This document shows, in pieces, positions 5,257 through 17,904 of a stretch of DNA of 64,000 nucleotides. Numbering within the stretch: the first letter of the stretch is position 1; the number at the start of each line of letters is the position of its first letter. The notes under the pieces were generated by a model that did not search any database, was not told the DNA's origin, and saw only the letters and a list, made by a program, of their open reading frames with translations. The position numbers and the translations under genes were made by a program. The DNA comes from an uncultured Myxococcales bacterium (GTDB lineage Bacteria > Myxococcota_A > UBA9042 > DTJE01): NCBI GenBank assembly GCA_903936705.1, contig CAIZWN010000035.1, forward strand, positions 124,001-188,000, in the 5' to 3' direction.

Positions 5257-6230
5257 CTGCACCATTGCCAACAGGAAAAGGGCCACTTCCGACGGTGACC
5301 GCGATTACGGCTGTTGGAAGCATGATGGAGCTGTTCTGGTGCTGCCTTCCGAAGGACCCCGACTCGGTAGTGATCAGCAACCGGTTCGCGATCGAGGACT
5401 CGGGACTGGCGCTGATGCGTCATGGTATGCGGCCTGTCGGCCTGGCCGAGTGCCTTGGGCCGGCCTCGTGCGCCGAGGGCGAGGATCGAGTCCGCAAGGC
5501 GCTTGGGGGAAAGGCGGCATTTGTTCGCAGGCCCGCCGATCAACCCGGCCTTGTCGATCTCCTGTATGGCCCGGAAGAGGCGGATGTCCGTGAGGCCGCG
5601 CGGGTCCTGGACGAACTCCTGCAGGCGAAAACTCACCGTCCCGACCTGATCAAGGGAATGGGCGCGTATCTTGGATATCCGGCATGCTGCCTTGAGGCGT
5701 TTTGCGAACTGAACGAGTTCGAGAAGCGCAACCTTGGGTGGGCCTATGCCCGGCTACGTGCCGAATGCCCCGGCCCGGTCGATCCTCGTCAAAACCCGTT
5801 CACTGGCTTGAAGCCGTACCACCTTCCATGCGGACCGAATTGTGCTGAAACCCTTGCGTTGATCGACGCCGCGGCATGTTTCATGTCCAGCGAAGCTCCG
5901 GCGATGCTGACGAATGAACTGGCAATCTCGACGTGTCCAATAGTCTTCTCGCTTGGCAGCTTTCCGTCATTTTCCTTGCTTCTGGGTGGAAAAGAGCAGC
6001 AGCCTGGGACGTTGACCTACCAAAGGGCAATCGCATTCGGCGGCGACCCGGCATTTGCTTTGCTGGCCAAGGGAAACCGCCTGGAGATTCACGAAGGCGA
6101 TTTGTCGTTGTTTTCGGGAAACGTCCCGATCGGCCGATTCGTGGATCAGTTTGCTGTCTGGTGGTGGCGCAAGGCTTTCGACCACGAATACTGGCTTGGC
6201 GAAGTGATGCGACGAGCCCACGGTCACTGA
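5253..6230 (+). CDS. DUF483-like Cys-rich protein coupled to hisD
   Basis: A 325-residue protein without signal peptide or membrane segment. It contains KGMGAYLGYPACCLEAFC around residues 134-150, which resembles the Cys-Cys core of DUF483 proteins, plus further cysteines in ELFWCCLPK near the start and in HLPCGPNCAETLAL. The clustered cysteines suggest a metal or iron-sulfur site; this is inference. The ATG overlaps the hisD stop (ATGA at 5253-5256), so it is translated with the histidine operon, yet it resembles no histidine enzyme I know. It ends one base before a convergent gene, with no room for a separate terminator. Confidence 0.7.
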   Translation: MTAPLPTGKGPLPTVTAITAVGSMMELFWCCLPKDPDSVVISNRFAIEDSGLALMRHGMRPVGLAECLGPASCAEGEDRVRKALGGKAAFVRRPADQPGLVDLLYGPEEADVREAARVLDELLQAKTHRPDLIKGMGAYLGYPACCLEAFCELNEFEKRNLGWAYARLRAECPGPVDPRQNPFTGLKPYHLPCGPNCAETLALIDAAACFMSSEAPAMLTNELAISTCPIVFSLGSFPSFSLLLGGKEQQPGTLTYQRAIAFGGDPAFALLAKGNRLEIHEGDLSLFSGNVPIGRFVDQFAVWWWRKAFDHEYWLGEVMRRAHGH

Positions 6231-8086: not shown

Positions 8087-8863
8087 GTGGAGGAAGGACT
8101 GGTTCCCAGGTCCAATCCTGGTTCGCAGCGATGGTTCTGGGTGATGCTGTACGCACCCTGGGCGTTTCTTGTCGTGTACCCATGGCTGGTGCTGTCGACG
8201 ATGCTGGGGGCAATCGGCGGCTTTCTTGTATCGCTGCTGCGTGCCGATTTCGCGTTCTATTTCGCCGGTCCCTGGGCCAAGGGCCTGATCCTGGCGAACT
8301 TCTCAAGAGTGACGATTACGGGATTTGACAAGGTGCAGCCGGGGCACGCCTATGTCATGGTGTCCAACCACCAGAGCCATTTCGACATTCTTGCCTTGTT
8401 AAGCCGCTGGCCCCACCAGTTCCGGTTCGTGATGAAGCAGGAACTGAGGAGCGTGCCTTTCCTTGGGTGGTACTGCGGCTTTCTGGGCAACGTGTTCGTG
8501 GACCGCAGGGACCACGCCAGATCGGTTGCCAGCATCAAAGCGGCAATACCACTGCTGGAACGCGGGGTGTCGGTCCTGTTTTTTGCGGAAGGGACCCGCA
8601 GCCGCGACGGGCGCCTTCAGGCATTCAAGAAAGGCGCCTTCAATTTTGCCCTCGAGTCGGGGTTTCCGATCCTGCCGATCTCGATCAGCGGGACACACCG
8701 GATTCTCCCGGGAAACCAGCTAGGCCCGCTGCCAGGGCACGTCCGAATGACCGTGCACGAACCTATTCCGACGGCCGGGCTGGGAATCGATCAGAAGGAA
8801 GCCTTGATGCAGCAGGTCCGAACGGCAATTTCCAGCGGCTTGACCCCCTTCGAGCTCCGGTAG
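8087..8863 (+). CDS. plsC: 1-acyl-sn-glycerol-3-phosphate acyltransferase (PlsC family)
   Basis: A membrane-associated acyltransferase that would transfer a fatty acyl chain to the sn-2 position of lysophosphatidate or a related lysolipid. The NHQSHFD box (HX4D catalytic pair) and FFAEGTRSRDGRLQAFKKG (phosphate-binding EGTR block) are both intact, followed by PILPISISGTHRILP. There is one or two hydrophobic segments near residues 20-50. It has 258 residues, normal for the family. The start is GTG 8087. It is divergent from the membrane transferase; with the start preferred there, the two share about 170 bases of upstream DNA. The precise acceptor lipid cannot be read from sequence. Confidence 0.88.
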   Translation: MEEGLVPRSNPGSQRWFWVMLYAPWAFLVVYPWLVLSTMLGAIGGFLVSLLRADFAFYFAGPWAKGLILANFSRVTITGFDKVQPGHAYVMVSNHQSHFDILALLSRWPHQFRFVMKQELRSVPFLGWYCGFLGNVFVDRRDHARSVASIKAAIPLLERGVSVLFFAEGTRSRDGRLQAFKKGAFNFALESGFPILPISISGTHRILPGNQLGPLPGHVRMTVHEPIPTAGLGIDQKEALMQQVRTAISSGLTPFELR

Positions 8864-9004: not shown

Positions 9005-10624
9005 ATGAAGTATTGCACTTTGCTGCTTGCGTTCATGGCAAGCCAGACGGTCCTGCTGGCCGGCTGTCACTCCCGCAAGACCGATGAAATCCCCCCCAAG
9101 CCTGTCGCCGCTGCCGAACCGGCAGTGGTGCCGGTCGCGGCCGAACTGTTCGTGATGTCCCGCTGCCCCTACGGCCTCATGGCCGAGGATGCACTGTTTC
9201 CGGCGCTGGACAAGCTTGGTGACGCCATCGACTTCCGCCTGCACTTCATCGGCGACGTGGACACGGACGGCAGCCTGATCACGATGCACGGCGAACCCGA
9301 ACTGCGGGCAAACCTGCTGCAGATCTGCGCGGCAAAACTGGCCCCAAAGGCTTTCCGCACGCTGATCGCCTGCATGAACCGGCAGCCGGAGGCGATTCCC
9401 GACAACTACCCTGATTGCGCCGTGAAGGCCGGAATTGACGCAGCGGCTGTGACAGCTTGTGCCGACGGCGACGAGGGCCGCGGGCTGCTGAAGGCATCGT
9501 TCGAGTATGCGGCGCAGAAGGGGATCCAGGGGTCTCCCTCGATGACCATCACAGGCAAGGAATTCGATGGCCCGCGGACCACTGAATCATTCCTGCGCGC
9601 CTTTTGCGGGTCATTTACCGGAACAAGGCCTGCGGCATGCGCTTCGATACCTGAGCCGGTCGAAGTGCCAGTGCTGGTCCTGACCGACGCCAGGTGCGAA
9701 CCTTGCAGCCGGGCAGTCGATATGGGCCTCAAGCAGTTGAAGGCGCTGTTTCCCGGGCTGAGGGAACGAGTGATCGAATACGCAACCGACGAGGGCAAGG
9801 CGCTGCACGGCACGTTGCGCGCTGCCGACCAGAAGTACCTGCCCGCATTCGTGTTCGGTGATGAGGTCTTGAAGGATGCATCCTATCCCCAGATCGAAAA
9901 GTACTTCGAGGACGCAGGCAAATATCACGTTCTGCTGGTGGAATCCGGCTTCGACCCGACTGCGGAAATTTGCGACAACAAGGTGGATGACGACTCCAAC
10001 GGAAAAGTCGATTGCGACGACCCGGGGTGCAAGTCCAGTTTGGTGTGCCGGCCCGAGCAGAAGCTTGGCCTGGACGTGTTCGTGATGAGCCAGTGCCCCT
10101 ATGGCATCGTCGCGCTGAACTCCATGAAGGAGGTCCTGGCGTCATTCGGCAAGCACATGAACTTCCGGGTCCACTTCCTGGTCGATGCCGGCGAGGAAGG
10201 GCAGATCGAGTCGCTGCATGGAGGTTCGGAAGTCGAGGAGGATCTGCGGCAGATTTGCGCCATTGCCAAGTACGGAAAGGGCAATCGCTGGCTGGACTAC
10301 ATCTGGTGCCGTAACAAGTCCCCCGAATCGAAGGACTGGAAGGCGTGCGCGACCGGCGCCATCAAGGCCTCCGTGATCGAGCAGTGCTCGACTGGCCCCG
10401 AGGGCCGGAAACTGCTGCTGCAGGACTCCATCATGGGACAGGAACTGGGAATCAGTGCCAGCCCAACGTGGCTGGTCAACAACCGCTTCCCCGCCAGCGC
10501 ACTCACCGCGGACGAGATCCGCGCTATTTTCTGCGCTCGCAATCCAGGAACCCCCGGCTGCGACAAGCCTCTTTCGAACGACGCTGGCGGAGCACAGCCG
10601 GGTGGCGGCTGCCAGGCTAACTGA
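9005..10624 (+). CDS. Lipoprotein with three thioredoxin-like domains and a calcium-type linker
   Basis: A 539-residue exported protein. The signal ends in LLAGC (lipidated Cys21). Domain 1 (about 45-205) opens with MSRCPYG (Cys54), domain 2 (about 225-315) has ARCEPCSRA (Cys231/Cys234, a CxxC pair), and domain 3 (about 357-515) repeats MSQCPYG (Cys364). Domains 1 and 3 look homologous to each other (LHFIGDVDTDG versus VHFLVDAGEEG; LLQICA versus LRQICA) and resemble DsbA/GILT-type thiol proteins, but their CPYG site lacks the second Cys. A segment at about 321-342 with DxDxNGxxD spacing and bracketing cysteines resembles calcium-binding repeats of myxobacterial surface proteins. GGAGGG lies five bases before the ATG. 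Role in periplasmic thiol exchange is inferred. Confidence 0.8.
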   Translation: MKYCTLLLAFMASQTVLLAGCHSRKTDEIPPKPVAAAEPAVVPVAAELFVMSRCPYGLMAEDALFPALDKLGDAIDFRLHFIGDVDTDGSLITMHGEPELRANLLQICAAKLAPKAFRTLIACMNRQPEAIPDNYPDCAVKAGIDAAAVTACADGDEGRGLLKASFEYAAQKGIQGSPSMTITGKEFDGPRTTESFLRAFCGSFTGTRPAACASIPEPVEVPVLVLTDARCEPCSRAVDMGLKQLKALFPGLRERVIEYATDEGKALHGTLRAADQKYLPAFVFGDEVLKDASYPQIEKYFEDAGKYHVLLVESGFDPTAEICDNKVDDDSNGKVDCDDPGCKSSLVCRPEQKLGLDVFVMSQCPYGIVALNSMKEVLASFGKHMNFRVHFLVDAGEEGQIESLHGGSEVEEDLRQICAIAKYGKGNRWLDYIWCRNKSPESKDWKACATGAIKASVIEQCSTGPEGRKLLLQDSIMGQELGISASPTWLVNNRFPASALTADEIRAIFCARNPGTPGCDKPLSNDAGGAQPGGGCQAN

Positions 10625-10678: not shown

Positions 10679-11329
10679 ATGCTTGGCGCCATGATGACGT
10701 ATCTTCTGATCACTGTGGCCGGTCTGGCAGTTGTCCTGGCAGCGGAATGGCGTGGCATCCCAGGTGTCCAGTGGGTTGCAAAGCCTGTTGCGTCGCTGGG
10801 TTTCGTCGCCTTTGCAATGGCTTCGGGTGCGGTTGACTCGCTTTACGGACAATGGCTGCTGGCGGGACTTGTCCTGTCATTCGCCGGAGACGTTCTGCTG
10901 ATTCCCAAGAAGACCTCCATTGCGTTCATGCTGGGCCTTGCCGCGTTTCTTCTGGGGCACGTGGCATACGCCGCGGCATTCCTTGTCCGGGGGTTGCAGG
11001 ATGCCGCCTCGCTGATGGTAGCAGTGCCGCTGCTGGCATTGGCGGGCGGAATCCTCTGGTGGCTGTGGCCACGCCTTGATGCCAGGTTCAAGGTGGCGGT
11101 CCCCCTTTACGTGGCCGCAATAACCACAATGCTGACCTGCGCCTTCGCCACGACAATGCCCTCGGGCCGACCGGTCGCCCTGTGGCTGGGGGCATTGCTG
11201 TTCTACGTGTCGGACCTTTCCGTCGCCCGCAACCGCTTCGTTTCCCCCGGATTTTCAAACCGGGCCTGGGGTCTGCCAGCCTACTACGCCGGCCAGTTGC
11301 TGCTGGCCTCGACCGTCGCCGGGTATTGA
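10679..11329 (+). CDS. YhhN/TMEM86-family membrane protein (lysoplasmalogenase-like)
   Basis: About 216 residues with seven to eight hydrophobic helices. The second half of the family core is recognisable: LSFAGDVLLIPKK, where the Asp is a conserved family residue, FLLGHVAYAAAFL, and LLFYVSDLSVARNRF with a second conserved Asp before the last helix pair. TMEM86/YhhN proteins hydrolyse the vinyl ether bond of lysoplasmalogens; the substrate here is unknown. ATG 10679 gives the longest product; ATG 10691 or 10694 are equally possible, with no clear ribosome binding site at any of them. The TGA at 11327-11329 lies inside the -35 box of the following tRNA. Confidence 0.8.
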   Translation: MLGAMMTYLLITVAGLAVVLAAEWRGIPGVQWVAKPVASLGFVAFAMASGAVDSLYGQWLLAGLVLSFAGDVLLIPKKTSIAFMLGLAAFLLGHVAYAAAFLVRGLQDAASLMVAVPLLALAGGILWWLWPRLDARFKVAVPLYVAAITTMLTCAFATTMPSGRPVALWLGALLFYVSDLSVARNRFVSPGFSNRAWGLPAYYAGQLLLASTVAGY

Positions 11330-11567: not shown

Positions 11568-11640
11568 ATCGTGCAACTCAGCCTCGATGGTCTCGACCGT
11601 GGGCGCGGTCAACTGAGCCCAAACCCCTACGCAGCGTGCA
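11538..11640 (-). pseudogene. Short 3' remnant of an unidentified gene beside tRNA-Thr
   Basis: On the minus strand an open frame ends WAQLTAPTVETIEAE, then LHDLPDLKNDER and a stop at 11538-11540. It has no start and runs back into the 3' end of the antitoxin gene, so it is only a tail. A closely related tail ends at 13905-13907 in copy B of the direct repeat. An integrase end would be expected at this position next to a tRNA, but 30 residues are too few to identify the family. Confidence 0.35.
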
Positions 11641-12082
11641 TCTTCAGGTAGTCGAGTGTCCCTGGCACGTCACGAACGATCTTCAGCAGCACGTCCATGG
11701 CACCATTCTGCGCGTTCCGGCCAGCTTCCCAACGCGAGACCGTGTTCGGTCCAAGTTGAAGTAAAGCAGCTAGTTGCGCCTGCGTAAGGTGTAGCCGCTG
11801 TCGCAAAGCACGAATCTCGTCCGCACTAAGAAGGGCGTGGGAGTGCCGGTACATTTCGACCGCTCGTTCCTGCAGGGTCTTGGACTCGTCGTAACGAAGC
11901 ACGACCTCGCCACAAGACGGGCAGGCAAGATGCGACACTTCGGGTACTACTACCTTCTCGCCGTTGACGACGAACGGGAGTTCGGTAGTCATGGCTTGCA
12001 TGGCGGTCCCACACGTCGGGCAAGCGTCTTCAGACAAGACGGCGGGCCGAGGTTCACTGTTGCTGGTGGCAGCTCGCTTCAT
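11627..12082 (-). CDS. MqsA-like antitoxin (YgiT zinc finger plus XRE helix-turn-helix)
   Basis: A 151-residue DNA-binding protein. The N-terminal half has two Cys pairs, CPTCG near residue 22 and CPSCG near residue 55, forming the YgiT/MqsA type zinc fold. The C-terminal half is an XRE helix-turn-helix (RLHLTQAQLAALLQLGPNTVSRWEAG). Such proteins neutralise a partner ribonuclease toxin and repress their own operon. It starts two bases after the toxin stop, with a strong GAGGAGGTG ribosome binding site inside the toxin's last codons, suggesting high antitoxin synthesis. The toxin gene comes first, as in E. coli mqsRA. Confidence 0.88.
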   Translation of the reverse strand: MKRAATSNSEPRPAVLSEDACPTCGTAMQAMTTELPFVVNGEKVVVPEVSHLACPSCGEVVLRYDESKTLQERAVEMYRHSHALLSADEIRALRQRLHLTQAQLAALLQLGPNTVSRWEAGRNAQNGAMDVLLKIVRDVPGTLDYLKMHAA

Positions 12083-12083
12083 T

Positions 12084-12392
12084 TCACACCTCCTCGTGGA
12101 ACGAAACCACGATGCAGTCGTTTCGTATGATCACCTTGACGTAGAGCAAGCCGAAAGCCGTCGTCGGCTTGAATACGTGCAACGCCTCCCCCGTGATCAG
12201 CGAGCAGATCCGGCTCTCCCAATCCTCGGCCTCCAGCCCTGACAGAATCTCCACGACATCATCAATGTCGGCAGAAGGTTCCAGCGAAGCCATCTCCTCC
12301 TGGGCCTTCATCGTGACCCGTACGGCCCGCCGACCAGCAAGGTCGCGTATCCGCCGAAGGGCGTTTCGGGCGTGGCGAGGGATGGGAGACAT
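12084..12392 (-). CDS. MqsR-like / DUF4258-like toxin
   Basis: About 102 residues from ATG 12392; in-frame ATG 12401 is a near alternative. Recognisable parts are VRVTMKAQEEMAS, the charged EILSGLEAEDWESR segment, and the C-terminal strand pair FGLLYVKVIIRNDCIVVSF, as in small toxins annotated MqsR-like or DUF4258 that sit before a YgiT-HTH antitoxin. MqsR itself cleaves mRNA at GCU; whether this one does is unknown. Two palindromes immediately upstream (12394-12426) probably bind the antitoxin. It lies in a gene-poor accessory segment next to tRNA-Thr. Confidence 0.78.
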   Translation of the reverse strand: MSPIPRHARNALRRIRDLAGRRAVRVTMKAQEEMASLEPSADIDDVVEILSGLEAEDWESRICSLITGEALHVFKPTTAFGLLYVKVIIRNDCIVVSFHEEV

Positions 12393-12393
12393 C

Positions 12394-12409
12394 TTCACCA
12401 TATGGTGAA
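12394..12409. promoter_or_regulatory. 16-base perfect palindrome, probable operator of the MqsRA-like pair
   Basis: TTCACCATATGGTGAA is a perfect inverted repeat directly in front of the toxin start at 12392, spanning the alternative ATG at 12401. Antitoxins with an HTH domain usually repress by binding such a site. Confidence 0.6.
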
Positions 12410-12426
12410 TGGTACGCAGGGTACCA
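12410..12426. promoter_or_regulatory. Second inverted repeat upstream of the toxin
   Basis: TGGTAC at 12410-12415 and GTACCA at 12421-12426 form a perfect 6-base inverted repeat with a 5-base spacer, adjoining the 16-base palindrome. It may be a second operator half or part of the promoter. Confidence 0.4.
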
Positions 12427-12433
12427 GGGCGCG

Positions 12434-12808
12434 TCAAGGCAGTTCACAAGTCCGGTCCGGAAGCGGGCCGGAGACGTGATAGGTCGATGGCGCTGATGCC
12501 GATGACAGCCCTGGCACCCGGTCGAGGACCGTGCAAAGGTGGAACCACGGCAATTTGGCAGCAGCCTGCTGCACAAATGGCTCGTCGGGCCACGCCTCGG
12601 CAAACGCCTTCATGTACCGCAGGTTGCTCGGTGAGAACCTTTTCATATCAGGAAACTCGTGGCGAAGGTCGCGTGACAGCCGGTCGATCACCCCGGCGCC
12701 CCAACCCTGCTGGGCCTGCCGAACAATGATGTCGAGACCGATGCCCCAGTACAGCAGCACGAGTTCGCGGTTGGCCGACAAGACCGCCCGCAGGAGTCTC
12801 TCTCGCGT
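12434..12808 (-). pseudogene. Truncated DUF1016 (YhcG-type) nuclease N-terminal domain
   Basis: Between about 12520 and 12805 the minus strand encodes a clear DUF1016 N-terminal domain: RAVLSANRELVLLYWGIGLDI, then QGWGAGVIDRLSRDLRHEFPD, FSPSNLRYMKAFAEAW and LPWFHLCTVLDRV. DUF1016 proteins continue into a PD-(D/E)XK nuclease domain; here the frame leaves the family after DRV and stops at 12434, so the nuclease half is gone. No good start codon precedes the domain. Upstream at 12805 it meets a fragment resembling the end of the XRE gene at 14282, indicating a recombination junction. It is probably non-functional. Confidence 0.7.
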
Positions 12809-12977: not shown

Positions 12978-13229
12978 ATGACAACGACGAATCTTATGAG
13001 GGAGCTGAAGCGACTCCCGATGGACGAACGACTGGCCTTCGTGGAGGCCGCGGTCCACCTCGTGCGAGAGGAACTAGCGCCACGGCCCAGGTCGGCCAAG
13101 GCAGCGACACCGCGCTCCGCCAAACGACGTGATCTGGCCGCCGCCGCGAAGAAATTGTTGCCGGACTACGCTGGCGACCGGGAGCTAACCGCGTTCACGT
13201 CTCTGGACGCGGAGGACTTCAGTGCGTAG
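12978..13229 (+). CDS. Small antitoxin partner of MazF
   Basis: An 83-residue, mostly helical and charged protein (RELKRLPMDERLAFVEAAVH at 8-27, then a basic Lys/Arg/Ala-rich middle). No family is recognised with certainty. Its role is inferred from position: its stop lies inside the first codons of the MazF-like gene (8-base overlap), the usual arrangement of antitoxin before toxin. GGAGGGG sits three bases before the ATG. The acidic end (SLDAEDFSA) could fit the RNA-binding groove of a MazF dimer, as other antitoxin tails do; that is speculation. Confidence 0.72.
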   Translation: MTTTNLMRELKRLPMDERLAFVEAAVHLVREELAPRPRSAKAATPRSAKRRDLAAAAKKLLPDYAGDRELTAFTSLDAEDFSA

Positions 13230-13566
13230 GGGCGAGATCTGGCAGATCAACCTGGACCCCACGGTCGGGTCGGAGATCAAGAAAACCCGGCCCGCGATCA
13301 TCGTCAGCGACGACGCCATCGGACTCCTCCCCTTGAAGGTCGTGGTCCCGGTGACGGAGTGGAAGGAACGCTACGCTGTCGCGCCGTGGATGGTGAAACT
13401 GCAGCCTGAGCCCAGCACGGGCCTGACAAAACCGTCGGCGGCCGACGCCTTCCAGGTGCGGGCGGTCTCCCACGAGCGGTTCGTCCGGCGCCTTGGGACG
13501 GTCTCTGATGCGGTGATGGATTCCGTGGCCGCGGCCCTCGCTTGCGTCCTCGCCATCGATCACTGA
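13222..13566 (+). CDS. mazF: MazF/PemK-family endoribonuclease toxin
   Basis: 114 residues of the MazF fold. The N-terminal block RRGEIWQINLDPTVGSEIKK followed by TRPAIIVSDD is diagnostic, including the Arg and Thr residues around the active site. Middle strands LKVVVPVTEWKE and the C-terminal VRAVSHERFVRRLG complete the family pattern. It would cleave single-stranded mRNA at a short motif; specificity is unknown. GTG 13222 is supported by GGAGGA at 13211-13216, five bases upstream and inside the antitoxin gene. Translation is therefore coupled to the antitoxin. Confidence 0.92.
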   Translation: MRRGEIWQINLDPTVGSEIKKTRPAIIVSDDAIGLLPLKVVVPVTEWKERYAVAPWMVKLQPEPSTGLTKPSAADAFQVRAVSHERFVRRLGTVSDAVMDSVAAALACVLAIDH

Positions 13567-14999: not shown

Positions 15000-15371
15000 C
15001 TACGGAAGGCGCAGTGGCAGCACGCGAACCCTGGTTCGACGCGGGTCAATAGTCAGCAATGCTCCCTCATCAAGTTCGCCTGCCAGTTGACGCAAGGCTT
15101 CGATTACCTGCAGCGAAATCGCTTCGGGGCGCACGTCGGCCGCCCGGATCTGAACTACCGAAGGCTTGTGCCAACCGGTAGCTGCCAGAATGGCACCGAA
15201 ATCCAGGTCGTGCGTCAGAACGACCATCCCGAATGTCTTGGCATGCGCCATCAACACCTGGTCAGATGCGTTGAGCACCCCGAGCATCGACCAGTGTGCG
15301 GCCTCGAAGCCGGCGGCGGACAAGACATCGACCCAGCGTGGGGAAAGGTTCATGTCAATCAGCAGTTTCAT
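15000..15371 (-). CDS. DUF5615 PIN-like protein (probable toxin)
   Basis: 123 residues of the DUF5615/Mut7-C-like PIN fold. The start MKLLIDMNLSPRWVDVL carries the first conserved Asp, HWSMLGVLNASDQVLMAHA the second acidic block, and VVLTHDLDFGAILA the third, as expected for a metal-dependent nuclease site. It overlaps the upstream DUF433 gene by four bases (ATGA at 15368-15371). DUF433-DUF5615 pairs are a recurring toxin-antitoxin-like arrangement; RNase activity is assumed from the fold. Confidence 0.88.
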   Translation of the reverse strand: MKLLIDMNLSPRWVDVLSAAGFEAAHWSMLGVLNASDQVLMAHAKTFGMVVLTHDLDFGAILAATGWHKPSVVQIRAADVRPEAISLQVIEALRQLAGELDEGALLTIDPRRTRVRVLPLRLP

Positions 15372-15598
15372 GCGCCAGCCAATATGACTTCACGTTCCTC
15401 AGCCAGCCATGCGGCGTAACGCAGAGCCTGAAGGACGTCCTCACGTTCCAGGTAAGGGTACTCGGCCAGAAGATCCTCGATGCTCTGGCCTGCGCCGATC
15501 TGGCCCACAATCAACCCTACTGTAACCCGCAGGCCCCGGATGCAAGCCCGCCCACCCATCACTTCGGCGGCTACGGTAATGCGGTCCAACTGACCCAT
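15368..15598 (-). CDS. DUF433 antitoxin-like protein
   Basis: 76 residues from ATG 15598, which GGGAGG precedes. The sequence MGGRACIRGLRVTVGLIVGQ followed by SIEDLLAEYPYLEREDVLQAL is the DUF433 signature, a winged helix-like domain thought to bind DNA. It directly precedes and overlaps the DUF5615 gene, so it is the probable antitoxin and autoregulator of that pair. A longer frame upstream to 15733 contains no family sequence and is rejected as the start. Confidence 0.88.
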   Translation of the reverse strand: MGQLDRITVAAEVMGGRACIRGLRVTVGLIVGQIGAGQSIEDLLAEYPYLEREDVLQALRYAAWLAEEREVILAGA

Positions 15599-15683
15599 AG
15601 GTTCCTCCCGTTCTGAACTACTGATACGGTATTTTAGTGAGCCGATCAAATCAACAATGGACGAACTTCGCCGTTGCCGCGTG

Positions 15684-15709
15684 GCCCCGGGAGGTTTCCC
15701 ACCCGGGGC
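15684..15709. other. Strong GC hairpin upstream of the DUF433 gene
   Basis: GCCCCGGG (15684-15691) and CCCGGGGC (15702-15709) form an 8-base perfect stem with a 10-base loop. It could be an operator or an old terminator for sequence on either side; no T-run follows. Confidence 0.4.
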
Positions 15710-15746
15710 TCCCATAGATCCGGACTTGCGCAATTAACGCATACGG

Positions 15747-15866: not shown

Positions 15867-15996
15867 TCCGAAATCGCTCTCGAACGAAAATGATCTTCGG
15901 ATTCTATCCCCGTAATACCCCGCTTTGGAAGGGGTTTCTTATCTACACTGCCCCGCGCCCAACACTCCAAATGCGGCAATTCGGTCAAGATCGCCC

Positions 15997-16024
15997 TTGG
16001 TTCCTGCGAATGTTCGGGTAAAAT
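15997..16024 (+). promoter_or_regulatory. Putative promoter of the 13-haem cytochrome gene
   Basis: TTGGTT at 15997-16002, a 16-base spacer, and TAAAAT at 16019-16024. Transcription from here would leave a leader of about 60 bases before GTG 16090. Confidence 0.45.
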
Positions 16025-16089
16025 GCGCCCGGGCGCGAAGTCGGCCATGCAACCGACTCGGGACAGACGGCTATTGCCGGGGGGTATCG

Positions 16090-17904
16090 GTGGACGGAAA
16101 GGAAGTACGCGGAACCGGGCTTTACCGGAACTGGATCAGCTATTTCGGGGCCCTCGTGGTCCTGGCCAGCGTCCTGATGATCACCGGTACTCTGATCGCG
16201 GAATTCAGCCTGAAGAGCCCGAGTCCGTATATCGGCATCTTCACGTACATGGTGTTTCCGGGCGTCCTGATTGGCGGTGTCGTAATGTTCTTCTTCGGGA
16301 TGCGCCACGAAAGCCTTCGACGACGCCGTGCGAAAACCAAAGATGCCCTGCCCTTCCCGAAGGTGGATCTGAACGACCCGCGCATGCGGCGCAAATTCGC
16401 ATACTGGCTGGTTGGCGGCGGCTTCCTGGCTGTCCTGATGGCCTTTGTCGGCTACAACGCGTTCCTTTACACCGAGTCGGTCGAATTCTGCGGCACGGTC
16501 TGCCACACCGTCATGGAACCCGAGCACGTCGCCCGCCTGGAAGGCCCGCACGCTCGCGTTCCATGTGTTGATTGCCATGTTGGCAACGGCGTTTCCTGGT
16601 ACGTGAAATCCAAGATGTCCGGCCTTTACCAGGTGTACGCGGTAGCTACGGGCGACTACGAGCGGCCGATCCCGGTCCCCGTCAAGAACCTGCGGCCCGC
16701 ACGCGAAACGTGCGAAGAGTGCCACTGGCCGAACAAGTTCTTCGGTGCGCAGTTGCAGCAGAATCCGCACTTCCGCTATGACGAAGCCAACACGCCCGAA
16801 CAGGTCAGCCTGCTGATAAAGACCGGTGGCGGAACTCCCAACCTGGGCCAGAAGGCCGGAATCCACTGGCACATGGTCGTGGACAACGTCGTGGAATACG
16901 CGGCGACGGACGAGAAACTGCAGGATATCCCCTGGGTTCGCGTCACGCACAACGATGGCTCTACGAAGGAATACATCGACCGGAAAGCCAAGGTCACTGA
17001 GGCGGATATCTCGGCCTTGCCGAAGCACAAGGTCGACTGCATGGACTGTCACAACCGGCCGTCGCACGTGTTTGTGCCGCCAGAGACAGGGGTGGACAAG
17101 GCTGGCGAGTCGGGCAGCATCTCGATGACTCTGCCCTGGGTCAAGAAACTGGCCGTCGACTCCCTGGTGGCCGAGTACCCGGACAAGCAGACAGCTCACG
17201 ACGGGATCCGTCAGGCATTCACTACCTATTACGGCGACCGATATCCGAACATACTGAAGACTCGAGCCGCCGACGTAACGCAGGCGGTCGAGACCGTGAC
17301 TGCGATATACGACCGCAATGTCTTCCCGGCAATGAACGTGAACTGGAAGACCTACGCTTCAAACATCGGTCACAGGAACTGGAAGGGCTGCTTCAGGTGC
17401 CACGACAACGAGCACGTCACAAAGGACGGCCAGGTGCTCAGCAACGACTGCACGCTTTGCCACACAATGCCTCAACGAAGCGCATTGATGCCGCTGGGCT
17501 CGGTGGCCCCGGCCAGCGATCGGAATTGGCACCCGTGGGAACTTAAGGGCAGGCATGCGGAAGTCCTTTGTTCACGCTGCCACGAGGCGGGGTATCGTCC
17601 GCCCACCGAATGTGCCGAGTGCCACAAGCTGGACAAGAAGGCACCGATGATGGCGGACGGCTGCGACAGTTGCCACTCGACACCTGGAGTCCGCAAGCCC
17701 GTCACGGAATGCAAGGACTGCCACGAAAGCCTGGGTGAACTTCACAAGAAGGAAGCGCACTCGGCCGAGAACTGCCTGACCTGCCACAAGCCCCATGGCT
17801 GGAAGGTGCCGGCCCGCGAGACGTGTCAGGGGTGCCACGAGGAAAAGAAGGCCCACTATCCCGATCAGCCCTGCGCGAAATGCCACAATTTCAAGGGTTC
17901 GTGA
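16090..17904 (+). CDS. NapC/NirT-type multihaem cytochrome c, 13 haem motifs
   Basis: 604 residues from GTG 16090, where a G-run lies about five bases upstream. Two membrane helices occupy about 17-40 and 50-75, a third lies near 105-125, and the rest is periplasmic. Twelve CXXCH motifs are present (CVDCH, CEECH, CMDCH, CFRCH, CTLCH, CSRCH, CAECH, CDSCH, CKDCH, CLTCH, CQGCH, CAKCH). The first site is CGTVCH at 134-139, a CX3CH spacing. The NapC-like part suggests quinol oxidation, and the haem-rich tail would pass electrons to periplasmic acceptors. A convergent cytochrome/FeS/NrfD operon lies next door. The last 14 bases overlap the end of the gene on the other strand. Confidence 0.92.
   Translation: MDGKEVRGTGLYRNWISYFGALVVLASVLMITGTLIAEFSLKSPSPYIGIFTYMVFPGVLIGGVVMFFFGMRHESLRRRRAKTKDALPFPKVDLNDPRMRRKFAYWLVGGGFLAVLMAFVGYNAFLYTESVEFCGTVCHTVMEPEHVARLEGPHARVPCVDCHVGNGVSWYVKSKMSGLYQVYAVATGDYERPIPVPVKNLRPARETCEECHWPNKFFGAQLQQNPHFRYDEANTPEQVSLLIKTGGGTPNLGQKAGIHWHMVVDNVVEYAATDEKLQDIPWVRVTHNDGSTKEYIDRKAKVTEADISALPKHKVDCMDCHNRPSHVFVPPETGVDKAGESGSISMTLPWVKKLAVDSLVAEYPDKQTAHDGIRQAFTTYYGDRYPNILKTRAADVTQAVETVTAIYDRNVFPAMNVNWKTYASNIGHRNWKGCFRCHDNEHVTKDGQVLSNDCTLCHTMPQRSALMPLGSVAPASDRNWHPWELKGRHAEVLCSRCHEAGYRPPTECAECHKLDKKAPMMADGCDSCHSTPGVRKPVTECKDCHESLGELHKKEAHSAENCLTCHKPHGWKVPARETCQGCHEEKKAHYPDQPCAKCHNFKGS

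Follow-up and report, generated by a model that had tools for sequence, protein, structure and literature searches.

The gene at positions 9005–10624 of the window (the whole 64,000-nucleotide stretch of DNA that was analysed) encodes a lipoprotein of 539 residues in which two domains akin to GILT, a lysosomal enzyme of animals, each with a single cysteine at its active site, flank a divergent thioredoxin domain, and in which a further cysteine lies on a flexible C-terminal tail. We propose that it is a surface- or periplasm-facing thiol oxidoreductase of GILT-like type, whose tail cysteine would resolve domain 3 and whose domain 2 would exchange disulfides, and we put the probability of this reading at about 45%.

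Results

Architecture and GILT kinship of the outer domains

The open reading frame starts with ATG and lies on the forward strand, as do all features of the protein given below, between an acyltransferase gene (8087–8863) and a YhhN gene (10679–11329). Its product contains 23 cysteines. The lipoprotein signal peptide (9005–9067) ends with the lipobox LLAGC21, whose C21 is conserved at 90% or above across 25 aligned relatives. The same genome encodes a second full-length paralogue with 46% identity, which the original prediction, made from the sequence of the window, had missed.

Pfam GILT (PF03227) matches the protein twice (68 bits against a gathering cut-off of 22.4), in domain 1 (residues 44–214, 9134–9646) and domain 3 (residues 353–522, 10061–10570). 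The outer domains of the two paralogues all score above the cut-off, giving four domain matches in the genome, and no match was found in any of 14 control genomes. Within a 25-member alignment (A1), Pfam GILT matches 25/25 sequences, DSBA 23/25 and VSR_TRX 8/25. A full-length AlphaFold model built from a 25-row alignment (pLDDT 88.6, pTM 0.67) returned mouse GILT as the first Foldseek match (E 3e-9), and a profile search of PDB sequences likewise ranked mouse GILT first (E 7e-8). VIA superposed the domain 1 model on mouse GILT with Z 23.0 and an rmsd of 2.1 Å over 177/189 residues, the next row scoring 17.9; the VIA matches of the full-length model fall mostly in domain 1. Domains 1 and 3 share 35% identity over 164 columns (E 5e-30 in a single comparison), and the duplication is therefore real; from this identity, domain 3 would be expected to have the DsbA-like fold of mouse GILT. 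Together with the lipobox and the structural matches, these results bear out the original prediction of a lipoprotein with three thioredoxin-fold domains, the outer two duplicated.

As had also been claimed, the outer sites have one cysteine each, C54-P-Y-G57 (MSRC54PYG, 9164–9175) and C364-P-Y-G367 (MSQC364PYG, 10094–10105), and the middle domain has CxxC. In the AlphaFold model C54, C231 and C364 each directly precede the first helix that follows strand 1, and a proline stands before the next strand at the cis-proline position of each domain (P178, P280 and P487; in domain 1 the conserved pair S177-P178, 9533–9538). Given this geometry, the CPYG cysteines do not look structural; a structural role would have gone against the original prediction. 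The six non-catalytic cysteines of domain 1 (C108, C123, C138, C152, C201 and C212) each find a counterpart in mouse GILT, and this set recurs in domain 3, which leaves C54, apparently free, and C364 as the odd thiols. C54 itself aligns with the first cysteine of the GILT CXXC, and the position of the second is glycine here.

Passages in one account describe GILTs as having CXXC or CXXS sites and the signature CQHGX2ECX2NX4C (PMC7017176). A remnant of this signature occupies residues 93–108 of domain 1 (9281–9328), where H95, G96, E99, N103 and C108 are kept with unchanged spacing, and H95, G96, E99 and C108 are invariant in 25 aligned relatives. The glutamine and two other cysteines are replaced, so that the full signature is absent, and both outer domains have CPYG in place of CXXC or CXXS. 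As two defining GILT features are missing, we class the outer domains as GILT-like, within the GILT branch of the DsbA superfamily and not GILT proper. The thiol reductase activity of GILT is described in another study as depending on CXXC (PMC3543425).

The middle domain

Domain 2 (residues 217–318, 9653–9958) carries the conserved dithiol C231-E-P-C234 (9695–9706) and the cis-proline position P280 (9842–9844). Modelled alone, residues 216–320 form a thioredoxin-like domain with a pLDDT of 95.7 (67 rows; 8 of 74 candidate rows were left out of the alignment as divergent or odd), and the model has a beta-alpha-beta active site with CxxC and cis-proline, as expected of a thioredoxin fold. Its structural matches to PDO and thioredoxins are all weak (best VIA Z 7.3; best Foldseek E 1.9e-3, TMq 0.44).

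Across 110 aligned ORFs, which include near-duplicates since some genomes sit in two collections, cysteine is found at C54 in 102, at C364 in 104, at C231 in 104 and at C234 in 107, and proline at P280 in 106. All three active sites are conserved far above chance, and the four thiol sites (C54, C231/C234, C364 and the tail cysteine) occur together in 86/110. The two cysteines of domain 2 are spaced by 2 residues (CxxC) in 73/110 and by 3–5 in 31/110, and in two relatives the first is replaced by Phe or Tyr. Such spacing of 2–5, together with the two losses of the first cysteine, is unusual for a catalytic CxxC and counts against our preferred explanation.

Variants were seen at the outer sites. 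Five ORFs at loci L077, L085, L086 and L089 have a dithiol CPYC or CPHC in domain 1 and CPxA in domain 3, a pairing that holds in all five, of 98 ORFs in which both sites are readable.

The cysteine on the C-terminal tail

The original prediction had also missed Cys536 (codon 10610–10612), the lone cysteine on a flexible tail formed by residues 523–539 (10571–10621). Residues 531–539 have pLDDT values below 50, and the AlphaFold model gives no position for the tail. A cysteine occurs within the last eight residues of 101/113 non-redundant ORFs with a GILT-like last domain, against 87/576 other ORFs, the latter called mechanically from the same loci. After 12 rows had been dropped before tree building (CxxC DsbA-like proteins, fragments, one split gene and L076), a tail cysteine was present in 95/101 non-redundant relatives, which range from Myxococcota to CPR bacteria and DPANN archaea; L076 was dropped since two ORFs had one label, and one of these is a good member with the tail cysteine. 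Tail length varies among relatives. The tail cysteine accompanies the C-terminal GILT-like domain whatever the number of domains: one in proteins of candidate-phyla bacteria, two in archaeal proteins, or three. At its smallest, the form thus consists of a single CPYG domain and a tail cysteine. At L148 the last domain is without all six structural cysteines, and CPYG, the domain 2 CxxC and the tail cysteine are retained.

Six members have no tail cysteine (L046, L056, L069, L072, L077 and L082); domain 3 has CPxA in five of them and an intact CPYG in one. These six count against our preferred explanation. CPxA in domain 3 was associated with tail-cysteine loss by Fisher's test (p 0.006), in which the rows are not independent and one non-glycine row (L078) is an alignment gap. 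On the tree, with at least four tail changes and at least six glycine changes, an independent-pairs test of the link was not significant, and the association is therefore not relied on. The ORF at L056 (780 aa, from base 2343, forward strand) continues for more than 200 residues after its last domain in place of a short tail, and its domain 3 has CPYA.

The linker between domains 2 and 3

Domains 2 and 3 are joined by a linker that resembles an acidic double-disulfide repeat (E321–C348, 9965–10048). The DxDxNG motif between linker cysteines that had been pointed out earlier is there, as DDDSNG at residues 328–333 between C323 and C337. Residues 318–348 score 29.1 bits against NF033662 (acidic double-disulfide repeat), below its curated cut-off of 41. 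Among solved structures, the C-rich domains of teneurins come closest, with a teneurin-4 profile E of 0.017. As described in part of the structural report on the teneurin-4 domain, the crystal structure has three bound calcium ions, compactness of the dimer depends on calcium, and the disulfides are 838–857, 852–863 and 858–869 (PMC9058538).

Four of the six teneurin cysteines and several acidic ligands align with the linker. On our reading of this alignment, C323-C342 and C337-C348 would be the counterparts of the first two teneurin-4 disulfides, and D328, D336 and D339 align with calcium ligands at positions given in a passage of the same report (PMC9058538). These three are aspartate in 85, 86 and 82, respectively, of the 87 rows in which none of the four linker cysteines is missing. 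By homology, the linker is likely to bind calcium.

The order GILT-like, thioredoxin, GILT-like, which the original prediction had proposed to look for in homologues, was found in 92 non-redundant proteins. Scored by regular expression, the linker motif is present in 69 and absent in 23. By our reading, six of the 23 have a shortened four-cysteine linker and 17 have neither; 13 of these 17, all in named archaeal records, lack every one of the four linker cysteines, and one more, from Nanoarchaeota (L102), has a cysteine in the aligned stretch that lies off the motif. The hinge is thus optional.

Distribution and gene neighbourhood

Among 52 relative genomes 23 match the protein, 19 over most of its length and four in part, and across the phylum 36/377 genomes match, one of them only in part. 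From a named collection, the 80 best of 147 relatives were retained. These 80 come mainly from Myxococcota and Deltaproteobacteria, then from Kuenenbacteria, Patescibacteria, Gracilibacteria and Sumerlaeota, and include the archaeal groups Woesearchaeota, Nanoarchaeota, Altiarchaeota and Diapherotrites; these taxa are from record titles, mostly of MAGs with unchecked binning. Phylum samples centred on genomes picked for holding the family matched in 110/236 genomes around one Woesearchaeota genome, many through a single GILT-like domain, and in 18/239 around one Kuenenbacteria genome. The three-domain order spans several phyla of Bacteria and Archaea, and no viral relatives were found. A locus from outside the usual taxa of the family, in Spirosoma arboris (L110), holds a 651-aa ORF from base 5695 with a GILT-like CPFG domain, then cysteine-rich repeats and an extended C-terminal region.

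No cluster of neighbouring genes was common to more than five of 80 related loci, leaving aside the family itself (69 loci) and one further cluster (12 loci) read as an antisense frame of the family gene. The neighbourhood of these 80 loci indicates no pathway. For redox partners, the genome has three matches to DsbD_TM (reducing) and two to VKOR (oxidising), and so fits either direction.

Elsewhere in the window, positions 11630–12437 (reverse strand) hold an MqsA-like antitoxin and MqsR-like toxin pair, each above its Pfam cut-off, and positions 12978–13566 (forward) a gene for a PemK/MazF-like toxin, preceded by a small ORF without a Pfam match. A DUF5615/PIN-like and DUF433 gene pair at 15003–15733 (reverse) is, by our reading, likely a toxin-antitoxin module. 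A multihaem cytochrome (659-aa ORF, 15925–17904, forward) matches NapC/NirT and cytochrome c3/c7. In the same genome, a tRNA-Sec candidate above the Rfam cut-off (G000:C31:25299-25392, locus L120) suggests selenocysteine use; the control search gave matches in all 14 control genomes, over the cut-off in five, and only over-cut-off matches were counted. Selenocysteine at the single-cysteine site was considered and rejected, with no in-frame TGA among the matches listed (none, TAA or TAG).

Discussion

Proposed mechanism and alternatives

Our preferred reading starts from the domain identities, duplication, active-site geometry, domain order and conservation of the four thiol sites computed here. 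In each outer domain the one cysteine (C54 or C364) would attack a substrate disulfide, the second cysteine of the usual CxxC having presumably become glycine. A single-cysteine site needs another thiol for substrate release, so the candidates are the tail thiol for C364 and the middle CxxC for C54; of the features considered, the tail cysteine appears the likelier partner for a site with one cysteine. At domain 3, Cys536 would swing in on its flexible tail and free the putative substrate with formation of a C364-C536 disulfide. The C231/C234 pair of the middle domain may swap disulfides with the outer sites and link them to the electron carriers of the cell, perhaps in the reductase and not the oxidase direction. 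The linker would serve as a rigid spacer, stapled by disulfides and probably loaded with calcium.

The tail cysteine could have another use: it may disulfide-link two molecules, or anchor the protein to another, with the single-cysteine domains acting as monothiol-like exchangers that use substrate or small thiols. The predicted disorder and variable length of the tail would suit intermolecular bonding, and the human GILT precursor is a disulfide-linked dimer, which speaks for such linkage. We nevertheless regard it as doubtful, given that the tail cysteine stays tied to the C-terminal GILT-like domain in differently anchored proteins of one, two or three domains. It is unlikely that the outer domains bind rather than catalyse, in a ligand- or metal-binding lipoprotein with C54, C364 and C536 as thiolates, as might be suggested by plant vacuolar sorting receptors. 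The central domain of these receptors shares the fold, VSR1 structures rank close behind GILT, and the Pfam domain VSR_TRX matches eight of the 25 aligned members. Nearly all relatives retain the active-site cysteine, the cis-proline motif and the dithiol of domain 2, which suggests redox chemistry, and the lack of a conserved neighbourhood at the 80 loci also counts against a binding role.

The original prediction cast the three domains as a thiol relay within one molecule, with calcium at the hinge as its gate. Part of this stands, in that the linker motif is real and nearly invariant at its three aspartates, and the closest solved relative, teneurin-4, binds calcium and has a dimer of calcium-dependent compactness. 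A shape that depends on calcium fits poorly with the 13 archaeal relatives that have the same domain order and no linker cysteines, and with the shortened linker of six more members. Calcium gating is therefore unlikely as the core mechanism, and we consider the gated relay the least probable of the readings weighed here. Returning to the oxidoreductase with a resolving tail, a wider possibility, which we hold more tentatively, is that Myxococcota, candidate-phyla bacteria and DPANN archaea share a prokaryotic GILT-like class whose second active-site cysteine has been relocated to a swinging tail, with a four-site electron wire (C54, C231/C234, C364 and C536) running within one chain.

Comparison with known systems

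A 2008 survey states that prokaryotes had no known GILT homologue (PMC2398784). Our literature search, which covered mostly open-access papers and no preprints, turned up nothing published on such GILT-like proteins from bacteria or archaea. The view of GILT as eukaryotic would be broadened by a conserved family of multi-domain, single-cysteine relatives in Bacteria and DPANN archaea. Such a family would also allow one to ask how a CxxC enzyme functions once its second cysteine has shifted to a flexible tail, and to do so in lineages whose extracytoplasmic redox biology is little known.

Several named families share parts of the protein. The Rcas_1661 family thioredoxin-like (seleno)lipoprotein (NF041057) is a lipoprotein by name and matches residues 95–200; this identity was rejected at 38.6 bits against a curated cut-off of 190. 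Of 282 phylum genomes 281 match NF041057 loosely and none passes the cut-off, so we read these matches as general DsbA-like proteins. Archaeal PDO (1a8l, 1j08) gives the best profile and Foldseek matches of domain 2, weak at E 0.008 and 0.002 (1j08 VIA Z 6.1), and is a tandem pair, whereas domain 2 is a single divergent domain. The linker shares four cysteines of matching spacing and acidic ligands with NF033662 and the teneurin C-rich domain (7plp), but has only those four cysteines, the third disulfide being teneurin's.

The outer domains resemble in fold the thioredoxin-like domain of the vacuolar sorting receptor (PF25011; 9b1r and 8r4y, Z 17.9 and 17.4), which is a plant cargo receptor; the window protein has no PF25011 match at E 0.001. 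Bacterial DsbA is also similar in fold (S. aureus DsbA 3bci and BdbD 3eu3, Z 17.8 and 15.7), and differs in that the outer domains lack CxxC and have the GILT cysteine pattern. GILT itself (mouse structure 6nwx) is alike in fold, in the Pfam cut-off passed in both outer domains, in the six structural cysteines and in the HG-E-N-C part of the signature. Compared with GILT, the bacterial protein has CPYG for CxxC, has lost two signature cysteines and carries a tail cysteine, and it is a lipoprotein that joins two copies of the domain through a thioredoxin domain.
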